DNA of 64,000 nt from Fibrobacterota bacterium (GTDB lineage Bacteria; Fibrobacterota; Fibrobacteria; UBA11236), in contig JAHFCH010000002.1 in NCBI GenBank assembly GCA_023249635.1, positions 1 through 64,000 of the forward strand. Direction: 5' to 3'. Made by a program: the position numbers and the translations under genes. Below the pieces are notes generated by a model, which did no database searches, had not been told where the DNA came from, and worked only from the letters and a program-made list of their open reading frames with translations. This document shows, piece after piece, positions 24,341 through 56,758 of this stretch. Position 1 is the stretch's first letter. Every line of letters begins with the position of its first letter.

Positions 24341-27139
24341 ATGTACGCATGGAAACCTGGAATCATCAACCATACCACCGCCCTCCTGGGTATTGCCTTT
24401 TCGGCCATATTCGCCGTAACGGTCGGAGCACCGGGAGGGGCCTATGCGCAAACTGCCCCCGCCGAGCTCAACCTCAAGGGCAAGGTGCGCGACTTCGTCG
24501 AGGATAACGCCACCGTTACCCCCATTCATCCGCATTTCTACGGCAACAAGCCGCACCAGGCGAATTGCAGCGCCCAGGCTTCCGCCGTCAACATCATCCA
24601 ACCCGACATCGATACCACCAATGCGGTGGGCGATACCTCGGTATTCAAGGGCGACAATCGCGGTCCCAAGTTGATCGTTCCCCTCGACCCCAAGGTCGCG
24701 CAATGCTTCGAACCGGTGGATCGCTTCCCCGATTGGTACAACGACAAGGCCGCCGACGTCAATCGCGCCTTCCTCATCGACATCAAGTTCACGCGCAACC
24801 CGGCCACCGGGGTATACGAGTATTTCGACGACAACTTCTTCCCCATCGACAACGGCAAGACCTTCCGCAACCTGGGCCCCAATGGCACCTTCGGGCATTT
24901 GCTCCCCGCGCCCAATAACATCCACAATTACGGCTTTACCATGGAGTTCCATGCCCGCTTCACCTATTACAAGGGCAAGGGGCAGGTATTCACCTTCCGC
25001 GGCGACGACGACGTATGGGTATTCGTGAACGGCAAGCGCGCCATCGACCTGGGCGGCATGCATCCCGCCCAGGATGCCAACTTCAATCTGGATGACATCG
25101 CCGTCGCCACCGGCCTCAAGGATAGCCTGGTATACCCGCTCGACTTTTTCTTCGCCGAACGGCATACCACCACTTCCAAGCTGCGCATCACCACCACCCT
25201 GGAACTGGAACCCCTCGCCTCCAAGCCCGTCATCGCCCTCGGCCGGTATTTCGAAGGCCAGACGACCGTCAGCATAACCCATTCCGCCGCGGACGCCATC
25301 ATCTATTACACCACCGACGGATCGGTGCCCACCACCTCGTCGCTCAAGTACACCGGCCCCATCACCGTTTCGGCTACCACCGTCATCAAGGCTATCGCGG
25401 TAAGGCCCGGCTACCGCAACAGCGATCCCGACTCCCAGACCTTCACCCGCATGGAAACCGTAGCCACCCCCAAGGCCAATCCCACCGGCCGCATCTTCAC
25501 CGATCCGTTATCCATCGTCCTCAGCGACGCCACTCCCGGCGCCATCATCCATTTCACCCTGGACGGCTCCGTCCCCGATTCCACCAGCCCGGTGTATACC
25601 GGTCCAATCGCGGTTACGGGCACGATCAAGATCCAGGCCAAGGCCTACCTCGCCAATTGGGTTGCCAGCGCCGTGATGACGGAAGTCTATACCGACGCCA
25701 GCACCCTGCCTCCCCCCGTAGCCGATCCCGGCCATGGCGGATTCGTGGGAACCCTCACCGTGAAACTCTCCGTGCCCGGGCATGCCGATGCGCAGATCCG
25801 ATACACCGTCGACGGCAGCGAGCCCACCGCATCCAGCCCCTTGTACAAGGATGCCTTGGTCTTCACCGCGACCACGGTGCTCAAGGCCCGCGCCTTCCAA
25901 CAGGACTGGCATCCCAGCCTGACGATGAGCGAAGACTACGAGCGGCTGGCCGCGACGGTCAAGGCCGTGTACGTCGACTTCAATGGCGACGGCAGCATCG
26001 ACGGCGCCGTCATCCATCTCGACATTCCCGCGGACAAGGTCCCCTCTTCGGTGCGGCTGCTCGATCCTTTCACCAAGGCCCCTCTCGTGGTCGCCTCCAG
26101 CCAGATCGAGAAAAGCGCCGATGGCATGACGCTCACCGTGCGCTTCCCCGAGAAACCTTTCACCGCCGGTACCGCCTTCCCGCCTTCTCTGCTGGGGTCC
26201 TTCCCCAACGTGGCCGGCTTCGCCATGGGCGAGTTCTCCGTGGCCGACTCGGTAGGCCCCGTGCCCGTCAAGGCGGTATCCAACAACAAGAAAACCCCCG
26301 AGGATCGCGCCAGCGTGGAGATCACCTTCAGCGAACCCATCAACCTGTCGGAACTCCGCATCGCTTCGGCTTGGCCTTTCGACATCATCCGCAACGGCGG
26401 TCCCCAGGGCAAACCGGTATTGGTGGAAAGCATCGAACCCGTGTCCGGAAAGCCCAATACCTACCTGTTCACCTTCGTAGTGGAATCCCCGGCGTATCCG
26501 GTATTCATCGACAGCCTGGTGCTGGCCGCCAAGCCCGGGATCCATGACGAAGGCGGCACCGCCGGCATCCCCGGCGGCAAGCGCATTCCGGTTGAAGGCG
26601 TGCCCCAGAAACTCATCAACAATTTCCATATCACCCTGACCAACCCCATCGTTCCCGATCAGGAGGGCGGAGAGACCACCTTACCCCCGGACGTGCGCGC
26701 GAAACCCTTCGCGATCGTGGGCGTCACCTTGATAAGTTCCAACCAGTTGATTTGCCTCGATTGCCGTTCGGGGACGGAAAACATCTTCCTGGGCAACCGC
26801 AAACTGCCGGAGTGGATCATCACCTCGAAGTATGCCTTCCATTACACTTTCACCATCTATGATCACCTGGGCAACTACGTATCCAAGACCGACGGACAGG
26901 TGACGGAAGCCATGATGGCCAAACTGGCGCAGGACAAGGACGGGTTCCGCAGCCTGCGCTTCCGTTGGACGCCGGTTTCGCATAGCGGCGGGGCCGTGGC
27001 GACCGGGGCGTATATCCTCAAGGGCTACGTGATCAACCACAAGGATGAGGCGCAGAAGGGGAGCCAGGGCGAAGACCAGACCCTGGACGGGGCCCAGCGC
27101 GCCGTGTTCGCGACTTTCGGGTACCTACGCCAGCATTGA
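24341..27139 (+). CDS. Secreted fibro-slime protein with three chitobiase-C-like repeats
   Basis: The protein has 932 residues with a signal peptide ending near GGAYAQ. The fibro-slime domain spans about 45-290: [48 protein letters not shown], then [25 protein letters not shown] (Asp222-224) and [11 protein letters not shown]. Three repeats of about 75 residues follow (295-370, 375-450, 458-533), each with a Y/F-T-x-D-G-S-x-P-T core ([30 protein letters not shown]) and the later TVIKAIA-type strand, as in chitobiase C-terminal domains. A Ca-like [10 protein letters not shown] follows near 553. The C-terminus has an Ig-like module ([11 protein letters not shown] ... [22 protein letters not shown]). 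Fibro-slime proteins in Fibrobacter are surface or slime proteins linked to cellulose adhesion; binding to an insoluble glycan is the likely role. Confidence 0.88.
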
Positions 27140-47109: not shown

Positions 47110-48135
47110 TCAGGGGCTGGGAAGGACGGGCACCATGGCCGGCCGGATACGCAGGCGGCCCAGGAAATCGAATCGGGTCTTCGCGGGCCGCGTCGACATG
47201 GTCGCGGCGGCAGGCGCCGCGATGGCCGTGGACGGCGAAAGGTAGCCGCGTTCCGTCATCCACGTGGCGCAGATGCCGGGCCAAGTCGCGATTTCGGGCA
47301 GATCCGGGGCCCCGGCGACGCCGTTCGCCAAACCGAATCCGTGCGGCCCATGGCTATAGAATTTGGTCTGCGCAGCCACGCCGTGACTGGCGAGGGAATC
47401 GCGGTAGATGAGCGAGTTGTCCACGAGTACCCCGGGGTCATCGCTGGCATGGACCAAAAACGCGGCCGGGGTCTTGGCCGTGACCTGCTTTTCGTTCGAG
47501 AGATAGAAGAGATCTTCGGGGATAGGGCTCGTCCCCAGCAGGTTGGCGCGCGAGCCGCCGTGGGCATAGGGACCTTCCATGGTAATGACGGGATAACCGA
47601 GCACCTGGAAATAGGGTTTGCATCCCTGGCGATCGATGGTATCCGGCGCGGCCGCGTCCCCGTCGTCATAATGGGTGGCGACCGTAGAGGCGAGATGGCC
47701 GCCCGCGGAAAAACCTACGATGCCGATGCGGGCCGGATCGATCTTGAAACGCTTGGCGTTGGCCTTCACGTAGCGCATGGCGCGCTTGGCGTCGTTCATC
47801 TCGATGGGATGGCGATAAGGCGAAACGCGGTACTTGAGCACGAAAGCCGCCACGCCCAAAGTGTTCAGCCACTTGGCCACCTGGTAGCCTTCCTTATCGA
47901 TGGCGAGATGATCATAACCGCCGCCCGGGCAGATGATCACGGAAGTGCCCATCGCCTTTTTCTCGTCGGCGGGGAAAATCGTCAGGGATGGCTTGGATTC
48001 GGCGGTGGTGTCCTTGGCGCCGGGCGCGCCTTTGGGCCATAAAAGTTCCACGGCTTCGGAGGCGCGCGGGGTTTCCGTTTCCAGCGCGACGGCGCAAAGC
48101 AAGGCGACCAGGATGGCCTGCGGAAATGCTTTCAC
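47110..48135 (-). CDS. Secreted alpha/beta hydrolase (acetyl-xylan-esterase-like), paralogue 1
   Basis: The protein has 341 residues with a signal peptide ending near LETETPRAS. Catalytic features are GFSAGGHLAS (nucleophile Ser), HASDDPGVLVDNS (Asp) and HGPHGFGLA (His). The opening LLWPKGAPGA and CPGGGYDHLAIDKEG (oxyanion HGG-like segment) are shared with the two other paralogues in this window. Enzymes of this type are often annotated as endo-1,4-beta-xylanase B-like esterases (BD-FAE family) and deacetylate or cleave side chains of hemicellulose. The GTG at 48135 has GAGGG upstream. Tandem with paralogue 2 on the same strand. Confidence 0.85.
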   Translation of the reverse strand: MKAFPQAILVALLCAVALETETPRASEAVELLWPKGAPGAKDTTAESKPSLTIFPADEKKAMGTSVIICPGGGYDHLAIDKEGYQVAKWLNTLGVAAFVLKYRVSPYRHPIEMNDAKRAMRYVKANAKRFKIDPARIGIVGFSAGGHLASTVATHYDDGDAAAPDTIDRQGCKPYFQVLGYPVITMEGPYAHGGSRANLLGTSPIPEDLFYLSNEKQVTAKTPAAFLVHASDDPGVLVDNSLIYRDSLASHGVAAQTKFYSHGPHGFGLANGVAGAPDLPEIATWPGICATWMTERGYLSPSTAIAAPAAATMSTRPAKTRFDFLGRLRIRPAMVPVLPSP

Positions 48136-48276
48136 TTGTGGGTCCCTCTCCGGCCTAAAGATATACCGGAAGGCTTGCGCGCGTGAGGCGGTTCTTGCCC
48201 TGAAAACGGGGTAGGCCGGGTTTTTGAGGAAGGCTTTACCGCGCGCCAAGCCGCGGGGACCATGCCCCGCCAGCGG

Positions 48277-49332
48277 TCAGGGTTCGCCGCGGGGACGGGG
48301 CAAGCGTCCCATCGCGTCGGAGAATCGGGTTCCCCGCGATCCGGGCCGGATGTAAAGCATTCCATGGCCCGAGTGGCCCGCGATGGCAGGGGAGCCCGCC
48401 GACGCCGCGACGGCGTTTAGCGAAACCGTCTGCTTCAGAAAGCCTTGGGCGGCCAGCCATTTGGCGGCCAGTCCCGGCCAGGTGTTCAACACCGAATCGG
48501 TGGGCGCGCCGCCCTTGCCGTCCGCCATGCCGAAGCCATGCCCGCCATGATCGTAAATCTTGAATTCCGTCGCCACCCCGCGCCGGACCAGGGAATCGTG
48601 GTAGGCCTGGGAATTCTTGATGGGCACCGCGCCGTCGTCGGTGGCATGGAACAAGAAGGCCGGGGGTGTCTTGGAGGTTACCTGCTTCTCGTTGGAAAGC
48701 GAATCGACCAGCATCTGGCTGGGATTGGTGCCCAGCAGGTTGTCCCGCGATCCCATATGGGTAAAGGATTTATCCATGGTGATGACGGGATAACCCAGGA
48801 TGGAAAAAGCGGGACGGCAGCCTTGACGATCGATGCTGTCCTTGGCGGCAGGGTTACCGTCGTCGTAATGCGTGGAGACCGTGGCGGCCTCGTGCCCGCC
48901 GGCCGAGAATCCCAGCACGCCTACGCGCTTGGGATCGATGCCGTACTTGGCCGCGTTATGGCGCACCCAGCGGATGGCCCGCTGCCCGTCGCCCATCTCG
49001 ATGGGATGGCGGTAGCCCGCCGATCCCAAGCGGTACTTTACCACGAAGGTGGAAATCCCCTGGGTGTTGAACCAAAGGGCCGGTTGCTTGCCTTCATGAT
49101 CCATGGCGAGACCCGAATAACCGCCGCCGGGGAAGATCACCAGGGCCGCGCCGTTCACTTTGGACGGGGCAGGATAAGGCGTGATGGTGGGTTTATCCGT
49201 GGCGGCGGTCCCGGTCGCACCGGGCGCGCCATTGGGCCAGAGCAGGATCTCCTGCGCGAAGCCGGAATGCACGGATATCATGATGGCGAAGATCGCCGGA
49301 ACAGCCGCGGACGGCAAGCGGAAATTGGACAT
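48277..49332 (-). CDS. Secreted alpha/beta hydrolase (acetyl-xylan-esterase-like), paralogue 2
   Basis: The protein has 351 residues with a signal peptide ending near SGFAQ. It aligns along its length with paralogue 1: LLWPNGAPGATG, FPGGGYSGLAMDHEG, YRHPIEMGDGQRAIRWVRHNA, GFSAGGHEAAT (Ser), HATDDGAVPIKNS (Asp) and YDHGGHGFGMADG (His). The last 50 residues add an extra segment ending in FSDAMGRLPRPRG, a degenerate D-x-x-G-R secretion module that paralogue 1 lacks. The ATG at 49332 follows GGGGGG by four bases; a GTG four codons upstream is possible. It is divergent from the pilin operon, with 193 bases between. Confidence 0.85.
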   Translation of the reverse strand: MSNFRLPSAAVPAIFAIMISVHSGFAQEILLWPNGAPGATGTAATDKPTITPYPAPSKVNGAALVIFPGGGYSGLAMDHEGKQPALWFNTQGISTFVVKYRLGSAGYRHPIEMGDGQRAIRWVRHNAAKYGIDPKRVGVLGFSAGGHEAATVSTHYDDGNPAAKDSIDRQGCRPAFSILGYPVITMDKSFTHMGSRDNLLGTNPSQMLVDSLSNEKQVTSKTPPAFLFHATDDGAVPIKNSQAYHDSLVRRGVATEFKIYDHGGHGFGMADGKGGAPTDSVLNTWPGLAAKWLAAQGFLKQTVSLNAVAASAGSPAIAGHSGHGMLYIRPGSRGTRFSDAMGRLPRPRGEP

Positions 49333-49525
49333 GTGACCCCCCACGAGCCAAATAATAAGCCGCCGACTTGGGATTGCGGACCGTTTCCTTAACGTTTACC
49401 CGAAAATCCGTGGTTTTTGGGGTTTTTGGTGTTCGGGGCCGGAACGACCGCGGGTTTTTACGCTGACAGCATCATATTTTTCACATCAGTCCTACTTTGG
49501 CGGGTCCGCGCCCCCAGGGAGGATA

Positions 49526-50032
49526 ATGATACGGGATCAGATGCAGTTCAAGAACAACAGCAGAGGCTTAACCCTCTTGGAGGTTTCGGTAGTCGTGGCC
49601 GTGGTCGGTATCCTGGCCATGCTCGGCGTAAATCCCATGAAAAATTACCTGCGCGGCATCGATTTCCGGAATTCCTGCGAGAACATCAAGCGCCTGATCC
49701 AGACCGGGCAATCCCGCGCCATGGCCAACCCGAACATCCACATAGGCATTTATTTCGATCGCGGCTCGACCCCGAACAAAGCCTTCTTGTTCCAGGACAA
49801 GAAGAATCCCACCGACTACAGCTACGACGGAGTTGCCGATCCGGGATACCTGCAGCCGGAAGTCCTCAAGAAGGGCATTACCTTCCAACCCATACCCGGA
49901 CAGCCCGATGAGATCATCTTCCGCGGCGACGGTTCGGCCTGGCAAAGCATGAGGATTTGCCTCACCGATGGTAACCGCAAAGACACCCTGGACGTATTGG
50001 CCAGCACCGGGCGCGTAAGGTTGGGACGTTGA
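49526..50032 (+). CDS. Minor pseudopilin, GspH-like (first gene of pilin operon)
   Basis: The protein has 168 residues. The class III prepilin signal is SRG followed by LTLLEVSVVVAVVGILAMLG: cleavage after Gly14, Leu at +1 and Glu at +5 (Glu19). The globular part includes NIKRLIQTGQSRAMANPN, a GspH-like helix, and a strand-rich C-terminal domain ending in VLASTGRVRLG. It is predicted to assemble in the tip or initiation complex of a type IV pilus or type II secretion pseudopilus. AGGGAGG precedes the ATG. Its stop overlaps the next start (TTGA). Confidence 0.85.
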   Translation: MIRDQMQFKNNSRGLTLLEVSVVVAVVGILAMLGVNPMKNYLRGIDFRNSCENIKRLIQTGQSRAMANPNIHIGIYFDRGSTPNKAFLFQDKKNPTDYSYDGVADPGYLQPEVLKKGITFQPIPGQPDEIIFRGDGSAWQSMRICLTDGNRKDTLDVLASTGRVRLGR

Positions 50033-50442
50033 AGGCGGCGCGCGGGGTTACGGGTAATCCGCAGACCGGACTCACCCTCATGGAGATCCTCATCGCCCTG
50101 GTGGTCATCGGCCTGGGGATAGGCGTCTTCCTCAAGATGGAAGGCAGTTCCGGGAACAGCATGACCGGCAACAGCAAGATGATGCGCGCAGGACAGTTGG
50201 TCGAGAAGAACATCGAATCGGTGCGCATCGGCATCGCGCGGGATACCCTCCTGAACTGGCCCCCCAGGGATACGGGGTTCACCGAGGGCGGGCTCAAGCT
50301 TACGCGCAAGGTCTCGGCCGCGTTCTCCCCCAAGGACGGATCCGCCCTTCCCAACGTACGCAAGGTCGACATGATCGTCACCTGGGGCGCTTTTAAACTC
50401 GATTCCCTGGACGTTACCACCTATGTCACGCGCCGCTTCTGA
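50029..50442 (+). CDS. Minor pseudopilin, GspI/PilV-like
   Basis: The protein has 137 residues. The prepilin motif is QTG followed by LTLMEILIALVVIGLGIGVF with Glu at +5. The rest contains GNSKMMRAGQLVEKNIESVRIGIA, matching the long alpha-helix of GspI/PilV proteins, and a short strand domain. The start is the TTG at 50029, which overlaps the stop of the preceding gene by three bases, so it is translationally coupled. The gene overlaps the next one by 20 bases. Confidence 0.82.
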   Translation: MKAARGVTGNPQTGLTLMEILIALVVIGLGIGVFLKMEGSSGNSMTGNSKMMRAGQLVEKNIESVRIGIARDTLLNWPPRDTGFTEGGLKLTRKVSAAFSPKDGSALPNVRKVDMIVTWGAFKLDSLDVTTYVTRRF

Positions 50443-51217
50443 GAAAGGCTTCTCGCTGATCGAAGTGGTGGTGGCCCTGGCCGCCTCCGGGATCCTCACC
50501 GTGGGCCTGGTGCGTTTCTTCCGCGACTTCAACCGCTCCTACAACATGCAAGAGCAGGTAGGCGACAGGGACATGAATGCGCATTATTCCGTGAAACGGA
50601 TTTCGGAAGCCTTTATGGGAGTGGGTTCCAACCTGCCTTCCGAAGGTTGGACCATGATCTCGCTTCCCGAAGGCAATCCCGGCGCGCGCCTGCTGCTCTC
50701 GGTGAACCCGCGCGGCGGGGTGCAATACCTGGCCGCCCCCCTGGCCTCGGCCGTGGAAGTGCCCATCGACGATCCTAAAGCCTTCGCCAAGGCAACCGCC
50801 GTGCTGGCCGACCCGCAACCCGTTGGGATTCCCACCACCAAGGTCGCCATCGACCTGGGATACAACTCCGACGGATACGTGAAAGGCGTCAAGGAAGGCC
50901 CCCCCGCCATGCTGCGCCTGGCCTCCCCTGTGACCCTGGAGATCGGCGACGCCCTATACGCGTACGATGAACAGGATTTCCGTCTGCAGGACGGCAATCT
51001 TCTCCTGGACGGCAACGTCTTGGCCGAGAATATCCAGGATTTGAAATTCACCATGCTGACGGCGAACCAGAGCGTGACCAATCAATGGTCCGCCATGCGT
51101 TCCGCCAAGATCCAGGTCACGGCGCGCACGCGCACGGCCGATCCCGGTTATGTCCTGAACGGGGGTTACCGCAGCCTTGACCTGTCCATGGACGTGCTGT
51201 TGAGGAACCGCTTATGA
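50423..51217 (+). CDS. Minor pseudopilin, GspJ/PilW-like
   Basis: The protein has 264 residues. The prepilin motif is EKG followed by FSLIEVVVALAASGILTVGLV, with Glu at +5. The helix continues into YNMQEQVGDRDMNAHYSVKRISEAFMGVGSNLP, as in PilW/GspJ proteins, and the C-terminal domain ends with AKIQVTARTRTADP and a strand (SLDLSMDVLLRNRL). It overlaps both neighbours in the operon (20 bases upstream, ATGA downstream). Confidence 0.85.
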   Translation: MSRAASEKGFSLIEVVVALAASGILTVGLVRFFRDFNRSYNMQEQVGDRDMNAHYSVKRISEAFMGVGSNLPSEGWTMISLPEGNPGARLLLSVNPRGGVQYLAAPLASAVEVPIDDPKAFAKATAVLADPQPVGIPTTKVAIDLGYNSDGYVKGVKEGPPAMLRLASPVTLEIGDALYAYDEQDFRLQDGNLLLDGNVLAENIQDLKFTMLTANQSVTNQWSAMRSAKIQVTARTRTADPGYVLNGGYRSLDLSMDVLLRNRL

Positions 51218-52956
51218 ACGATTCCTCCGCCGCGCCCATCCCGGTCTCCGCTCCCGCCCCGCGTGAAGGCGGCTTCATCCTGGTGTTCACCATCCTCATG
51301 CTGCTGGGCATTTCGGCCCTGGCGGTGGGCATGGTCTACAACGCCCATCATGGCCGCGTGGCCGCGCTCAACTACAAGAATCGCATCCGCGCCTTCTACG
51401 CCTCGGACGGCATGCGCGCCCTGTTGGCGCAAGAGGTTCTGGACGGCAATGCCAAACGCTACATCGACGTCTCGATGGCGGGGCAGATCGACGGCGAAGT
51501 GTGGGAAGGGGCCGGCGGCAGCATGGCTGCGCTCAAGGGCGCCATGTCCCACGGTCCCGATCACGTGGACAAATCGCCTTACCTGGGATCGAATTGGAAG
51601 AACAAGACCGACTACGGCGTACGCTGGCGCGGCTACGTGATCCCGCCCGCCACGGGTGCCTACACCTTTTTCGTCCGCGCCGATGATCAGGGCGAATTCT
51701 ACCTCAGCACCGACGATATGCCGGCCAACCTTTCGGCTTCGCCCATCGCCTCGGTGGCCTCCTGGGCCTTCTCCTGGCCCAAATGGGGTTCCGGCGTATC
51801 CAAGCCGGTTTCCTTGAAGATCGGTAAGCGGTACTACTTCGAATTCCTGCATGCGCAGGGCATCGGCGGCGGGTTCGGGCAGGTGGGCTGGAGCGGCCCC
51901 AATTACATGACCGAGCGTCCCATCCCGGGCAAGCGCTTGGCCTCGTACGGTTCGAAGGCGGAGAAATGGGACACCACCAAGGTGGGCAAAGGCCGCGTTA
52001 AATACGCCCTGGCCGAAGCGGGACCCTTGGTCTATACCCTTAACACCGAAGCCATCATGGGCGGCAAAGGCGACACCACTTTCCGATCGCCGCTGAACCA
52101 GACCCTGAGCATGCGCGGCGATAATCCCGCGCCGCCCGAGAGCCTGTGGCAGCGCGTCATCTTCTATGATTTCCATTCCAACGGGAGCAATCCCGAATTC
52201 GACAAGGGCGCCTGCTGCTTCTGGGATGGAACGGTGACCACCGATATGGTCAAGCGCAAGGGACTGCGATACGAGACAGCCAACGCGGCCTATTTCGGGC
52301 TCGATTCCATCGGCAAGCCTGAACGCGGAAGCAACATCCGCTACAATTGCGGCATCGACAAATGGTTCACGGGATGGAAGCCGGGCTGGGAAGTCTGGTA
52401 CAACTACGCGGGCGGGTCGGCCGATTGCACGGAAACGCCCACCCCAGGCAGCGATAGCGCTTTCAAGAACGTGGTCATCAAAGACTCCCTGCTTTTCGTG
52501 CGGCGCGACGATCTGGGCGCCAACGCCTACCAGTTCAAGCACTTCGGCGTGGCCGACGATCCCGCCTTCATGCCCCTGGACAACCGCGGGCTGGGTAACG
52601 AAGGCGTTACGGATCTGGGGGGCGTGCCGAGGAATTACTCCTTCTGCATGGAGATCCACACCAAGTTCGAGCACACTTCCGGCATGAACTTCGAGTTCAA
52701 CGGCGACGACGACGTCTGGCTGTACATCAATGATTCGCTGGTGATGGACCTGGGCTTCGTGCACGTTTCCACCTACGCGACAGTGAGCCTGGACGACCTG
52801 CCGCTCACCTTCGGGGAAACCTATCCGCTGGATTTCTTCTATTGCGAACGTCAGCGCTTCGGATCAAGCATCGACCTGATCACGAACCTGCCGGTGCTGC
52901 TCAAGGCCGGTAAGCCGTCATCGAGCTGGAAGCGCGATTACGGGAATACCGAATAG
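51214..52956 (+). CDS. PilX/GspK-like tip pilin fused to PA14 and fibro-slime domains
   Basis: The protein has 580 residues. A prepilin-type N-terminus is visible: REGG followed by FILVFTILMLLGISALAVGMVY (21-42), where +5 is Phe25, not Glu, as in GspK-type tip subunits. Then RVAALNYKNRIRAFYASDGMRALLA matches the PilX/GspK helix. A PA14-like domain spans about 120-245 (VRWRGYVIPPATGAYTFFVRADDQGEFYLSTDDMPAN, KRYYFEFLHAQG). A fibro-slime domain spans about 313-563 (VIFYDFHSNGSNPEF, SFCMEIHTKFEH, FNGDDDVWLYINDSLVMDLG, YPLDFFYCERQ). The two binding-type domains would be displayed at the pilus tip. ATGA overlap with the preceding pilin gene fixes the start. A stand-alone fibro-slime gene lies 1.6 kb downstream. 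Confidence 0.88.
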   Translation: MNDSSAAPIPVSAPAPREGGFILVFTILMLLGISALAVGMVYNAHHGRVAALNYKNRIRAFYASDGMRALLAQEVLDGNAKRYIDVSMAGQIDGEVWEGAGGSMAALKGAMSHGPDHVDKSPYLGSNWKNKTDYGVRWRGYVIPPATGAYTFFVRADDQGEFYLSTDDMPANLSASPIASVASWAFSWPKWGSGVSKPVSLKIGKRYYFEFLHAQGIGGGFGQVGWSGPNYMTERPIPGKRLASYGSKAEKWDTTKVGKGRVKYALAEAGPLVYTLNTEAIMGGKGDTTFRSPLNQTLSMRGDNPAPPESLWQRVIFYDFHSNGSNPEFDKGACCFWDGTVTTDMVKRKGLRYETANAAYFGLDSIGKPERGSNIRYNCGIDKWFTGWKPGWEVWYNYAGGSADCTETPTPGSDSAFKNVVIKDSLLFVRRDDLGANAYQFKHFGVADDPAFMPLDNRGLGNEGVTDLGGVPRNYSFCMEIHTKFEHTSGMNFEFNGDDDVWLYINDSLVMDLGFVHVSTYATVSLDDLPLTFGETYPLDFFYCERQRFGSSIDLITNLPVLLKAGKPSSSWKRDYGNTE

Positions 52957-52993: not shown

Positions 52994-53959
52994 TCAGGGC
53001 GGGATGAAACCCTGTACGCGCAACCACTTCGCGCATTGCCCCGGCCAAGCCGCCAACTGCGCCTGACCGGGCTCACCGGACTTCTCCTGGGCCAAACCGA
53101 AGGCATGGCCCCCCTGATTGAATGCCAGAAACTCCACGCTTACCCCGGCTTTCCTGAGCGCGTCCGCGTAGGCGCGGCTGTTCGCGAAGGCGACGACGGG
53201 ATCGCCTTCGGCATGCACCACAAAGGCCGCCGGCGCTCCCGGCCCGACGCGTTTTTCTGCCGAAAGTGATTCGGGCAAGGCTGGGGAAGGGTCGCGGCCC
53301 AACAGGTTGTTGCGGGAAGCGCGATGCGTGTAGGGCGCCGCCATGGAGATGACGGGATAAACCAGCATCTGGAGATCGGGAACGCCCGCAAAGCGATCGA
53401 CGCTGTCCCCCGTATTCGGGCGCGGATCCGGCAACACCGACGCCAAGGCGGTGAGATGGCCGCCGGCGGAAAAACCGAGCATACCTACCCGGGCCGGATC
53501 GATGCGGAGGCGGCGGGCATGGGCGCGTACCCAACGCAAGGAGCGGCGCGCGTCCCCCAGTTCCACGGGATGGTGATAGCGGGGGCCCAGGCGATACCGG
53601 AGCACGAAGGCCGTGACCCCCAGCCCATTAAGCCAACGCGCGGGTTCGACGCCTTCCTTCTGCACCGCGAGGATTCCGTAGGCGCCGCCCGGGCATACGA
53701 TGACGGCGGGCGCGATGGAATCGCCGGGACGCGGTTTGGCGGGGAAGCAAAGCAGGGAAGGGCGATCGGATTCCGCACTGCCTACGGCGCCGGGAGCGCC
53801 CTGCGGCCATAGACGTTCAATGCGCGCGCCCGTGGCCGTATCGATTTCGACCCAGGGTGCGGAGGCGGTGCGATGGACCAGGGGACCGGGCTTGCCGGCG
53901 GCGGATATCGCGCAGGCGCAGATCAGGACCGCGCCGACGCTCGCGAACGACCGGGGCAC
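52994..53959 (-). CDS. Secreted alpha/beta hydrolase (acetyl-xylan-esterase-like), paralogue 3
   Basis: The protein has 321 residues with an N-terminal hydrophobic signal (SVGAVLICACAISAAGKPG). It shares the architecture of the two hydrolases upstream of the pilin operon: LWPQGAPGAVG, CPGGAYGILAVQKEG, YHHPVELGDARRSLRWVRAHA, GFSAGGHLTALA (Ser), VHAEGDPVVAFANS (Asp) and NQGGHAFGLA (His). Sequence divergence from the other two is larger. The start is a GTG at 53959 with no clear Shine-Dalgarno sequence, 11 bases after the stop of the tail-anchored protein gene. Convergent with the fusion pilin gene. Confidence 0.83.
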   Translation of the reverse strand: MPRSFASVGAVLICACAISAAGKPGPLVHRTASAPWVEIDTATGARIERLWPQGAPGAVGSAESDRPSLLCFPAKPRPGDSIAPAVIVCPGGAYGILAVQKEGVEPARWLNGLGVTAFVLRYRLGPRYHHPVELGDARRSLRWVRAHARRLRIDPARVGMLGFSAGGHLTALASVLPDPRPNTGDSVDRFAGVPDLQMLVYPVISMAAPYTHRASRNNLLGRDPSPALPESLSAEKRVGPGAPAAFVVHAEGDPVVAFANSRAYADALRKAGVSVEFLAFNQGGHAFGLAQEKSGEPGQAQLAAWPGQCAKWLRVQGFIPP

Positions 53960-54547: not shown

Positions 54548-56650
54548 TTAGCGGAGCCCCAGGCCGCGCACGGCGGTCCCCCGGACATAGCCGAATCGCG
54601 CCGTCTGCACCTGGCTGCCCCGCTCCACGTAGTCGCGGGGGTCGGCCCCGTAGGAGAATTCCGCCGTCAGTATGTACGCCCCCGTGGAAATGAGGTTCCC
54701 GTCATGCGAGACGGGAAACCAGGCGAAACGGAGGAGAAACGCGCGCGTTCCGGGATCACGCGCGTCACTGACACGCGCAAGTTTCCCCGACTGCAAGTCC
54801 TCGCGCGTCACGGTGAGCCGCGTCCGGTTCACGTATTGCCCCAGGTTGTCGTATACGATCAGCTTCAGGGTGGCCGGGTGGGAGAGCTTGAAGTCGAATA
54901 CCGCCAGGCCCGGATTCCCTTCCGTGCCCGTGTTCCGCCTAATCCAATCCTCCGCGGTTTCGGGATGCAGGGGGATGTAGTCTTTACGGTCACCCTGGGA
55001 ATCCTTGCTCGTCAGGAGGATGAAGGGATCCTTCACCTGCCCCGCCTTGGGGGGATCCGCCGTGGTCACGCCGCCTTTCTCGGCCCGCAAATCCCCGATC
55101 ACGATGCGCGGAAGTTTCGACTCCACCGGCCGCCACGGATTGGCCGGATGCGCGGGATTGCCCTGGCCATCCTTAACGAGATCGATCCCGGATATCGCGG
55201 TCTTCCAACCCTGCCCCGGCACGTTCGGCGATCCCGGCGCCACGGTGAAAGTCCAGGTTTGCGAACGGCCTCCCGATCCGGAATCGGCGCGCACGGCGAT
55301 TAGATCCACCTGCTTCTCCTTCCCGGTCGCGTCCTGGAACTTGAGCACCGCGGGCGCCCCCACCGTCACCGGTTCGCTGAAGCGGATCTGGATGAGGATG
55401 CCCGGGATATCGCTCAGCGAGGTGTCCTGCACCAGCTTCCAGGCACGGTCGATAACGGGCCCGATGCGGTCGTGGAGCGGGAAGCTCCCGTCGGAAAGCC
55501 CGGCCGCGGGCTCCTTGAAGGTATGCCCCTGGTTGGCCCCATCGGCCTCGTCCCAGCCCGTCACCGGTCGGGTGAAGAAATCGGATTTGGAGACGACGAG
55601 GCATTTCGCGGCGCCGTCCGCAGTAACATCCCAGTTACCCCGTTCCGCCTCCCCGGCCAAATCGAGTTCCAGCGCCGTCGGCGTCCGATCCGGCTGCTTA
55701 TCGAAAGCGATCTCGGCCTTATCGGCGATGCCATCCCCGTCCCGATCGTAGAGCCATCCTTCCACGGCCTTTACCGCCACGGGGTCGACGGGCTTATCCG
55801 AGTTCTTGAGATCCAGGGAGGTGGTGATGGTAAGCCGTGAAGCTTCTACGCGGCGCTCGGCGAAATAGAAATCCAGGAAGCAGGCCTTGCCCTCTTCCAA
55901 GGAAAGGGAATCGATGTTCACTTGCGCGAATTCCGCCGCATGCAGGCCGCCCAGGTCGATGACCAGGCGGTCATTGATGAACACCCATACGTCGTCGTCC
56001 CCGCGGAAGGAGAATTGCTGGCCCGTGCCCTTATGCGCCGTGAACTTGGCGTGGAATTCGAAGGTAAAGCCGTAATTATGCTTCGCCATGTCGATGCCCT
56101 CCGAGGTGCCCGTCTGGCGGTGCCCGAAGGTCTTGGTGACCGAAGGCACCTGGGGCCGCAACCCGGCGAGCTTGTCATCGTCGAGGGGAAAGAAGTCGGG
56201 ATTATCGTAGCTGTATACGGATCCGGTTTTGCTGAAGGGGAGCTCAAGGAAGAAGGCGCGATTGATGGAAGGATCGCGGGTGGTATACCATTCCCCGAAA
56301 CGGCTGCGGAAGCAGTTGGGCGGCATATCGAACCCGGCCTTCAACGCCGGTCCCCTCTCATCGCGATCATAAGGGAGGAAACCCGCGAGCTTGTCGGGAT
56401 TGGCGTCGCCTACGGCAAGGTTTTCCTGGACCGCGCCCTTGGCGGCCGTGGGTTTATCGAAACAGCCCCAGGCCTCCCACCCCCGCGGATCCCAGGTCGG
56501 GTTGAAATCGGGATGCCCCCCGGTCGCCTGACGTGCGCGCAACTCCTCGAAGTCGCGGACCACGCCGGTCAGCACCACGGGCGCCACCAGCGCCTGCCCG
56601 TGGGCCGCCGCCGCGAAAACCATCAACCATATGCTTATCCCGATCCGCAT
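54548..56650 (-). CDS. Secreted fibro-slime protein
   Basis: The protein has 700 residues with a signal peptide ending near AHGQA. The fibro-slime domain spans about 26-277 ([82 protein letters not shown] at 214-236, [12 protein letters not shown]). A Ca-like [12 protein letters not shown] follows, then an Ig/cadherin-like region ([19 protein letters not shown]). The C-terminal module ([14 protein letters not shown] ... [21 protein letters not shown] ... ARFGYVRG) closely resembles that of the fibro-slime protein at 24341-27139. The ATG at 56650 was chosen because the signal peptide starts there after GGGAAAGG. Divergent from the PPIase gene. Confidence 0.87.
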
Positions 56651-56758
56651 ACCTTTCCCCCCGTTGTTCCCCGTGCGACCGCGCTTTTCCGGCGCGGAAT
56701 CTTTTCTAATTTCCCAACCAAGACGCAGTCGTTCCGATTGCATGCAAAGGAGCAACCC

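Follow-up and report, generated by a model that had tools for sequence, protein, structure and literature searches.

Pilins that carry an additional non-pilus domain are widespread: a 2021 survey of these modular pilins listed over 1,200 proteins in 264 architectures, with pilin plus PA14 among the 15 commonest (Raynaud et al. 2021, PMC8179133). The survey required an N-terminal IPR012902/N_methyl motif, and adhesion has been proven for one modular pilin, PilB (PMC8179133). PilC of S. sanguinis is a glycan-binding pilin (PMC9934059), and both modular pilins of this species, PilB and PilC, bind host ligands and have been modelled at the pilus tip (PMC8179133, PMC9934059). Assembly of type IVa pili and of type II secretion systems (T2SS) is primed by a complex of the H, I, J and K minor pilins, capped by the subunit that lacks Glu5 (PMC10191384), and the beta sheet of GspK is interrupted by an inserted alpha domain (PMC8179133). 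The FimU-PilV-PilW-PilX quartet presents a tip adhesin, PilY1/PilC, and PilY1 is a separate, non-pilin protein (PMC7541494, PMC10191384). Pili and fibro-slime gene sets are both widespread in Fibrobacterota (PMC4704652), and fibro-slime proteins and pili have been proposed to act jointly when Fibrobacter succinogenes attaches (PMC4668043).

The window, i.e. the whole stretch of 64,000 nucleotides analyzed here, from an uncultured Fibrobacterota relative of the fiber-degrading Fibrobacter, encodes a K/PilX-type pilin with PA14 and fibro-slime domains in the same chain, referred to below as window K ( Table 1 ). As in S. sanguinis PilB and PilC, a pilin module bears a foreign binding domain; however, the S. 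sanguinis proteins have N_methyl, Glu5 and a C-terminal graft, whereas window K has a K/PilX host without Glu5 and with no detected N_methyl, a cassette placed within the fold, and then a fibro-slime domain and a conserved tail. It shares with GspK and PilX the position of fourth gene in an H-I-J-K set, the lack of Glu5, a PilX_N-like helix and an extra domain inside the pilin module, yet differs in that in its family the insert is a lectin-type cassette that comes in several unrelated kinds and that a second large domain stands at the end. A minor-pilin quartet presenting a tip adhesin is also what we propose here, the binding modules being part of K itself, unlike in PilY1. With the fibro-slime proteins of F. 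succinogenes, which are linked to cellulose attachment, it has TIGR02148 in common, but those are separate secreted or outer-membrane proteins for which no pilin part is described (PMC4668043, PMC4704652), whereas in window K the two are fused.

Window K works like a modular pilin, with extra non-pilus domains in the same chain, yet it lies outside the definition of the 2021 survey, and since that survey needs N_methyl, which Pfam does not find in K, the protein would probably have been missed. No description of a pilin fused to a fibro-slime domain was found in the open-access literature. The original prediction that no system with this kind of fusion had been described was nevertheless too strong, given the known pilin plus PA14 architecture (PMC8179133) and an adhesive domain on a PilX_N protein from another phylum (see below). 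What is new with respect to the known systems is the K-type host, the exchangeable slot within the fold, the fibro-slime partner and the conserved tail.

The K gene and its minor-pilin operon

Window K is the last of four overlapping minor-pilin genes (49526-52956, +) and forms a single open frame with zero internal stops. Its start lies within an ATGA overlap with the preceding pilin gene, as originally read, and has a GAGGA ribosome-binding sequence ahead of it; a promoter scan found nothing. The N-terminus is prepilin-like, with a leader ending in Gly-Gly (...REGG/FILVFTILMLLGISALAVG) and Phe in place of Glu at residue +5 (Gly20/FILVF...). Alignments of 13 diverse family members show the Gly before the helix to be invariant and Glu5 to be absent, while in the window operon Glu5 has been lost in K only, H, I and J having both Glu5 and N_methyl. 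A class III leader ending in Gly, a hydrophobic helix and no Glu5 are the features of a K/PilX subunit, as is the last place in an H-I-J-K operon, which is also occupied in most related loci.

Neither PilX_N nor N_methyl of Pfam matched window K, even at E 10, and a direct search of the window genome with PilX_N was negative, while several relatives matched PilX_N weakly (E 1.6e-5 to 1.5e-3, all under the gathering cut-off). An N-terminal profile built from other families of the phylum does find window K ( Table 1 ). In a model of residues 1-308, residues 19-76 form one helix, the PA14 domain is confidently predicted and three strands lie at 261-299; the structure models are shallow (7 sequences), with a pLDDT of only about 50-60 in the helix and pilin part. 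A full-length AlphaFold model (pLDDT 51) was discarded for the pilin and fibro-slime parts, the model of residues 1-308 being better, though still shallow. The pilin identity of window K follows from the profile built without its family, the weak PilX_N matches of its relatives, the H-I-J synteny, the Gly without Glu5 and, more weakly, the predicted helix. Together these support the original assignment of residues 17-75 to a prepilin-like N-terminus and a helix of PilX/GspK type, the low-confidence helix also being in line with the original expectation for residues 20-75.

The upstream arrangement recurs in the phylum. Pattern searches of 21 related loci recognized all three of H, I and J in 12, two of them in 6 more and one in a single locus broken by a contig end, mostly at about 1,250, 810 and 10 nt before K; none was recognized upstream of either of the two members in genome G089. 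The coupled H-I-J-K order is present in four families of the phylum. In one genome (G004; L092 4616-8093, -), two fused K genes stand in tandem after one minor-pilin set.

Table 1. Features of window K, of its operon and of the flanking genes (slashes mark the end of the leader).
Feature	Position	Strand	Evidence
H-type minor pilin (FimT/GspH-like), SRG/LTLLEVSVVV, Glu5 present	49526-50032	+	N_methyl E 1.5e-5; weak XpsH/GspH-type matches
I-type minor pilin (PilV/GspI-like), QTG/LTLMEILIAL, Glu5 present, 4-nt overlap with H	50029-50442	+	N_methyl E 1.8e-4; TIGR02523 PilV E 1e-3
J-type minor pilin (PilW/GspJ-like), EKG/FSLIEVVVAL, Glu5 present	50423-51217	+	N_methyl E 2e-5
Window K (K/PilX-type), 580 residues, with PA14 and fibro-slime domains	51214-52956	+	ORF, Pfam/NCBIfam, profiles, model
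Class III leader, residues 1-20, ends at invariant Gly20	51214-51273	+	Sequence; alignments
Pilin helix, residues 21-76, including PilX_N-like NYKxxxxxFYAxDG stretch	51274-51441	+	Leave-family-out profile E 6e-21; model
Exchangeable slot, PA14 domain, residues 92-244	51487-51945	+	Pfam PA14 E 3.3e-20; fold matches to lectin PA14 domains
Three-stranded pilin beta segment, residues 261-300	51994-52113	+	Leave-family-out E 6e-7; strands 261-270, 273-281, 294-299
Extended fibro-slime domain, residues 306-563; GDDDVW at 52702-52719	52129-52902	+	TIGR02148 E 3.4e-29; leave-family-out E 9e-46
C-terminal tail WKRDYGNTE (family W(K/R)RDYGxLD)	52927-52953	+	All full-length family members
BD-FAE-type esterases flanking the pilin operon	47110-48249, 48277-49344, 52994-53959	-	

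Both additional domains that had been read from the sequence, a PA14-like one at residues 120-245 and a fibro-slime one with a GDDDVW core at 313-563, were recovered by family searches. PA14 (PF07691) matches residues 130-237 in Pfam with 72.8 bits against a cut-off of 24, and the strands of the domain span residues about 92 to 244 in the models, whose nearest structures are the sugar-binding PA14 domains of Epa, Flo5 and a Marinomonas adhesin and the PA14 elements of a Clostridium clariflavum anti-sigma protein (6qe7, 6qdi). By analogy with PA14 lectins, Asp157-Asp158 (51682-51687) would sit at the positions of the calcium-site aspartates. The fibro-slime core TIGR02148 covers residues 473-559 in NCBIfam (101 bits, cut-off 45), GDDDVW being residues 497-502. 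Fibro-slime domains of a neighboring window protein and of relatives match PA14 in Pfam, so that window K holds two domains of one superfamily, both probably sugar-binding, on the K/PilX subunit of a complete H-I-J-K operon, as had been proposed. The neighboring protein is a free fibro-slime protein (54548-56755, -) with Pfam PA14 at its residues 177-291 and a weak FlgD_ig-like match at its C-terminus; a further fibro-slime domain occurs at 24923-25204 (+) within a large ORF, and the whole window genome has 24.

Copies, relatives and exchange of the cassette

Three K-fusion genes occur in the window genome (C332, that of the window, C288 and C319) and a further eight in four other genomes of the genus, where a contig end truncates one, giving 10 full-length copies and one contig-cut copy in 5 genomes; none was found in G003, a genome of the same genus. 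The copies form three orthologous groups with 100% bootstrap each. Values of dN/dS between orthologues lie at about 0.13-0.27, those of the window gene being 0.16 and 0.19, with purifying selection across every module and the lowest values over the beta segment after PA14.

Outside the genus, a scan of the phylum with the N-terminal part recovered, from families f9, f10 and f13, proteins 650-760 residues long that have the helix, beta segment, fibro-slime domain and tail of window K and a different domain between helix and beta segment. The family is thus present in four Fibrobacterota families (f1, f9, f10 and f13) and in 16-17 of 168 genomes, with about 20 members of full length and several others split between contigs. 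Its members share one layout: a K-pilin helix, a variable cassette, a short pilin beta segment kept in all members, a fibro-slime domain and W(K/R)RDYG at the C-terminus.

The cassette is an F5/8 type C domain in two members (G065, G071), GH115_C-like in G078 and in two members of G097, and DUF1349-like in G099 (over the Pfam cut-off), G102 (under the cut-off) and G081 (only E 0.06), while those of G089 and G090 received no domain assignment. Leave-family-out profiles, from which family f1 was excluded, recover the helix, beta segment and fibro-slime domain of window K ( Table 1 ) as well as its tail (E 2e-3), while that of the slot is unrelated to it (E 2e4). As profiles from the other families find all parts of window K except the cassette, the slot was exchanged, the swap having taken place between a helix and a pilin beta segment that were retained together with the fibro-slime domain and tail. 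In one G089 protein (C82; L178 1344-3305, -), which keeps the helix and beta segment, the place of the fibro-slime domain seems to be taken by BNR-type repeats, as judged from the sequence itself, and the WKRDYG tail is missing.

The matches listed for free fibro-slime proteins end short of the tail, and no W(K/R)RDYG was found in free fibro-slime ORFs with their end in view, some others being cut by a locus edge; as far as seen, the tail appears peculiar to pilin-linked proteins. A single origin of the pilin-linked fibro-slime domains was rejected (AU p 8e-5, free domains sampled by similarity). These domains are not one clade, indicating a history more complex than a single fusion: the fibro-slime part may have been exchanged too, or free copies may derive from fused ones.

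About 110 genomes of group f3, probably Fibrobacteraceae, yielded no member of the K family; the fibro-slime matches detected there cover the fibro-slime part only. The K fusion therefore does not explain attachment in rumen Fibrobacter, and the link to cellulose attachment in Fibrobacter drawn in the original prediction is not supported. In 24 other genomes and 392 genomes from the phylum of G172 only weak PilX-type matches were found (E 2e-8 or worse), and the family's chassis profile matched the smaller K-like proteins of the window genome weakly and over the helix only. A second family of large PilX-like pilins, of about 500-900 residues with NMPPG near the C-terminus, was also observed (L247-L252: G100 C427, G003 C49, G002 C95, G014 C30, G012 C499 and G002 C66); among the scanned ones, two gave matches to cyanobacterial HpsA.

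A genome from the phylum of Phycisphaera encodes a PilX_N protein (L260 463-1761, -) that also has DUF7305 and an adhesive domain of ice-binding-like type. Like window K, this protein joins a PilX-type helix and an adhesive domain in one protein; unlike it, the adhesive domain is an unrelated one, and there is neither a fibro-slime match nor the tail. Its occurrence in another phylum indicates that adhesin fusions of K/X type are probably broader than the family described here.

Proposed function and alternatives

The genome encodes type IVa pilus machinery, in line with the original requirement for pilus or type II assembly genes: PilB (697 bits, cut-off 675.65) is adjoined by a PilT-type ATPase and a T2SSF (PilC-type platform) protein, and a second PilT lies elsewhere, both PilT being above their cut-offs. 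The immediate surroundings of the window operon show no assembly genes and the genome has five extension-type ATPases, so that the quartet may prime a filament other than this one. The beta-propeller of PilY1 (PF05567) matched neither window K nor any of 16 genomes, and it matched no control genome either. Genes similar in appearance to the esterases that flank the window operon adjoin the orthologous loci L087 and L088, the C288 gene has a BD-FAE protein encoded nearby (L085) and the C319 gene a GH17-like protein, a neighborhood that suits plant polysaccharide.

We consider it likely that window K is the GspK/PilX-type subunit of an H-I-J-K quartet that primes the tip of a type IVa pilus, with built-in carbohydrate-binding domains. 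On the best reading it is a tip-capping subunit that doubles as a polysaccharide adhesin, for which we infer the tip position, the binding and the ligand. Prepilin peptidase would cleave after Gly20; K, lacking Glu5, would cap the fiber as GspK does with GspI and GspJ; and PA14 and fibro-slime would extend outward from the tip to bind polysaccharide, probably of plant origin and in a calcium-dependent manner. PilB would then extend the fiber and PilT retract it, drawing the cell to its substrate. With the adhesin being part of the K pilin itself, a separate PilY1 would not be needed.

The H-I-J-K set is common to T2SS and type IV pili, and the quartet could instead form a type II secretion pseudopilus in which the modules of K remain inside the periplasm or the secretin channel and there recognize or expel polysaccharide enzymes. 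The genome's other pseudopilin operons and its several GspE/PilB-like ATPases would accommodate this, as would the many enzymes secreted by Fibrobacterota. We nevertheless regard such a role as unlikely: two carbohydrate-binding domains fit an outside substrate better than periplasmic cargo, the smaller K-like proteins (about 150-175 residues) of the genome's other pilin operons are better T2SS candidates, and three parallel quartets point to different targets rather than to one housekeeping system. It is also conceivable, and in our estimation quite improbable, that K caps a short or non-retracting fiber that holds the cell or senses contact with polysaccharide. The anti-sigma PA14 elements of C. 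clariflavum among the nearest PDB matches and the lack of a visible assembly gene by the window operon agree with such a function, but PilT-type retraction ATPases are encoded next to PilB and elsewhere, and K has no signalling domain in Pfam or NCBIfam.

The window comes from a draft genome of 341 contigs, in which a frame error or chimeric assembly might have fused a pilin gene to a fibro-slime gene. This had been named as a way in which the original prediction could fail, and we give it hardly any credence: the same architecture occurs in separate assemblies of five genomes, in three copies here, with relatives in three other families, and the genes are under purifying selection. An error of frame or assembly was accordingly rejected on the homologues in other genomes and families.

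Window K is real and conserved, and a candidate modular tip-pilin. With slightly better than even confidence, we extend the tip-capping adhesin reading to several Fibrobacterota lineages, in which a capping K with an exchangeable lectin cassette within its fold, fibro-slime domain and tail would allow the specificity of a retractile pilus to evolve by swapping the cassette, parallel quartets in one cell providing alternative tips. The same subunit with a different cassette in relatives across the phylum suggests a retractable grappling hook with an evolutionarily swapped grip. Modular-pilin surveys requiring N_methyl are predicted to miss K-type adhesins, and the distribution of the family suggests that rumen Fibrobacter would have to attach in another way. 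If the reading is true, the subunit that caps the tip of a type IV pilus can also serve as its adhesin, the cassette in a defined insertion slot being exchanged between lineages, and the older proposal that pili and fibro-slime proteins act jointly on plant polymers would gain a concrete molecule.
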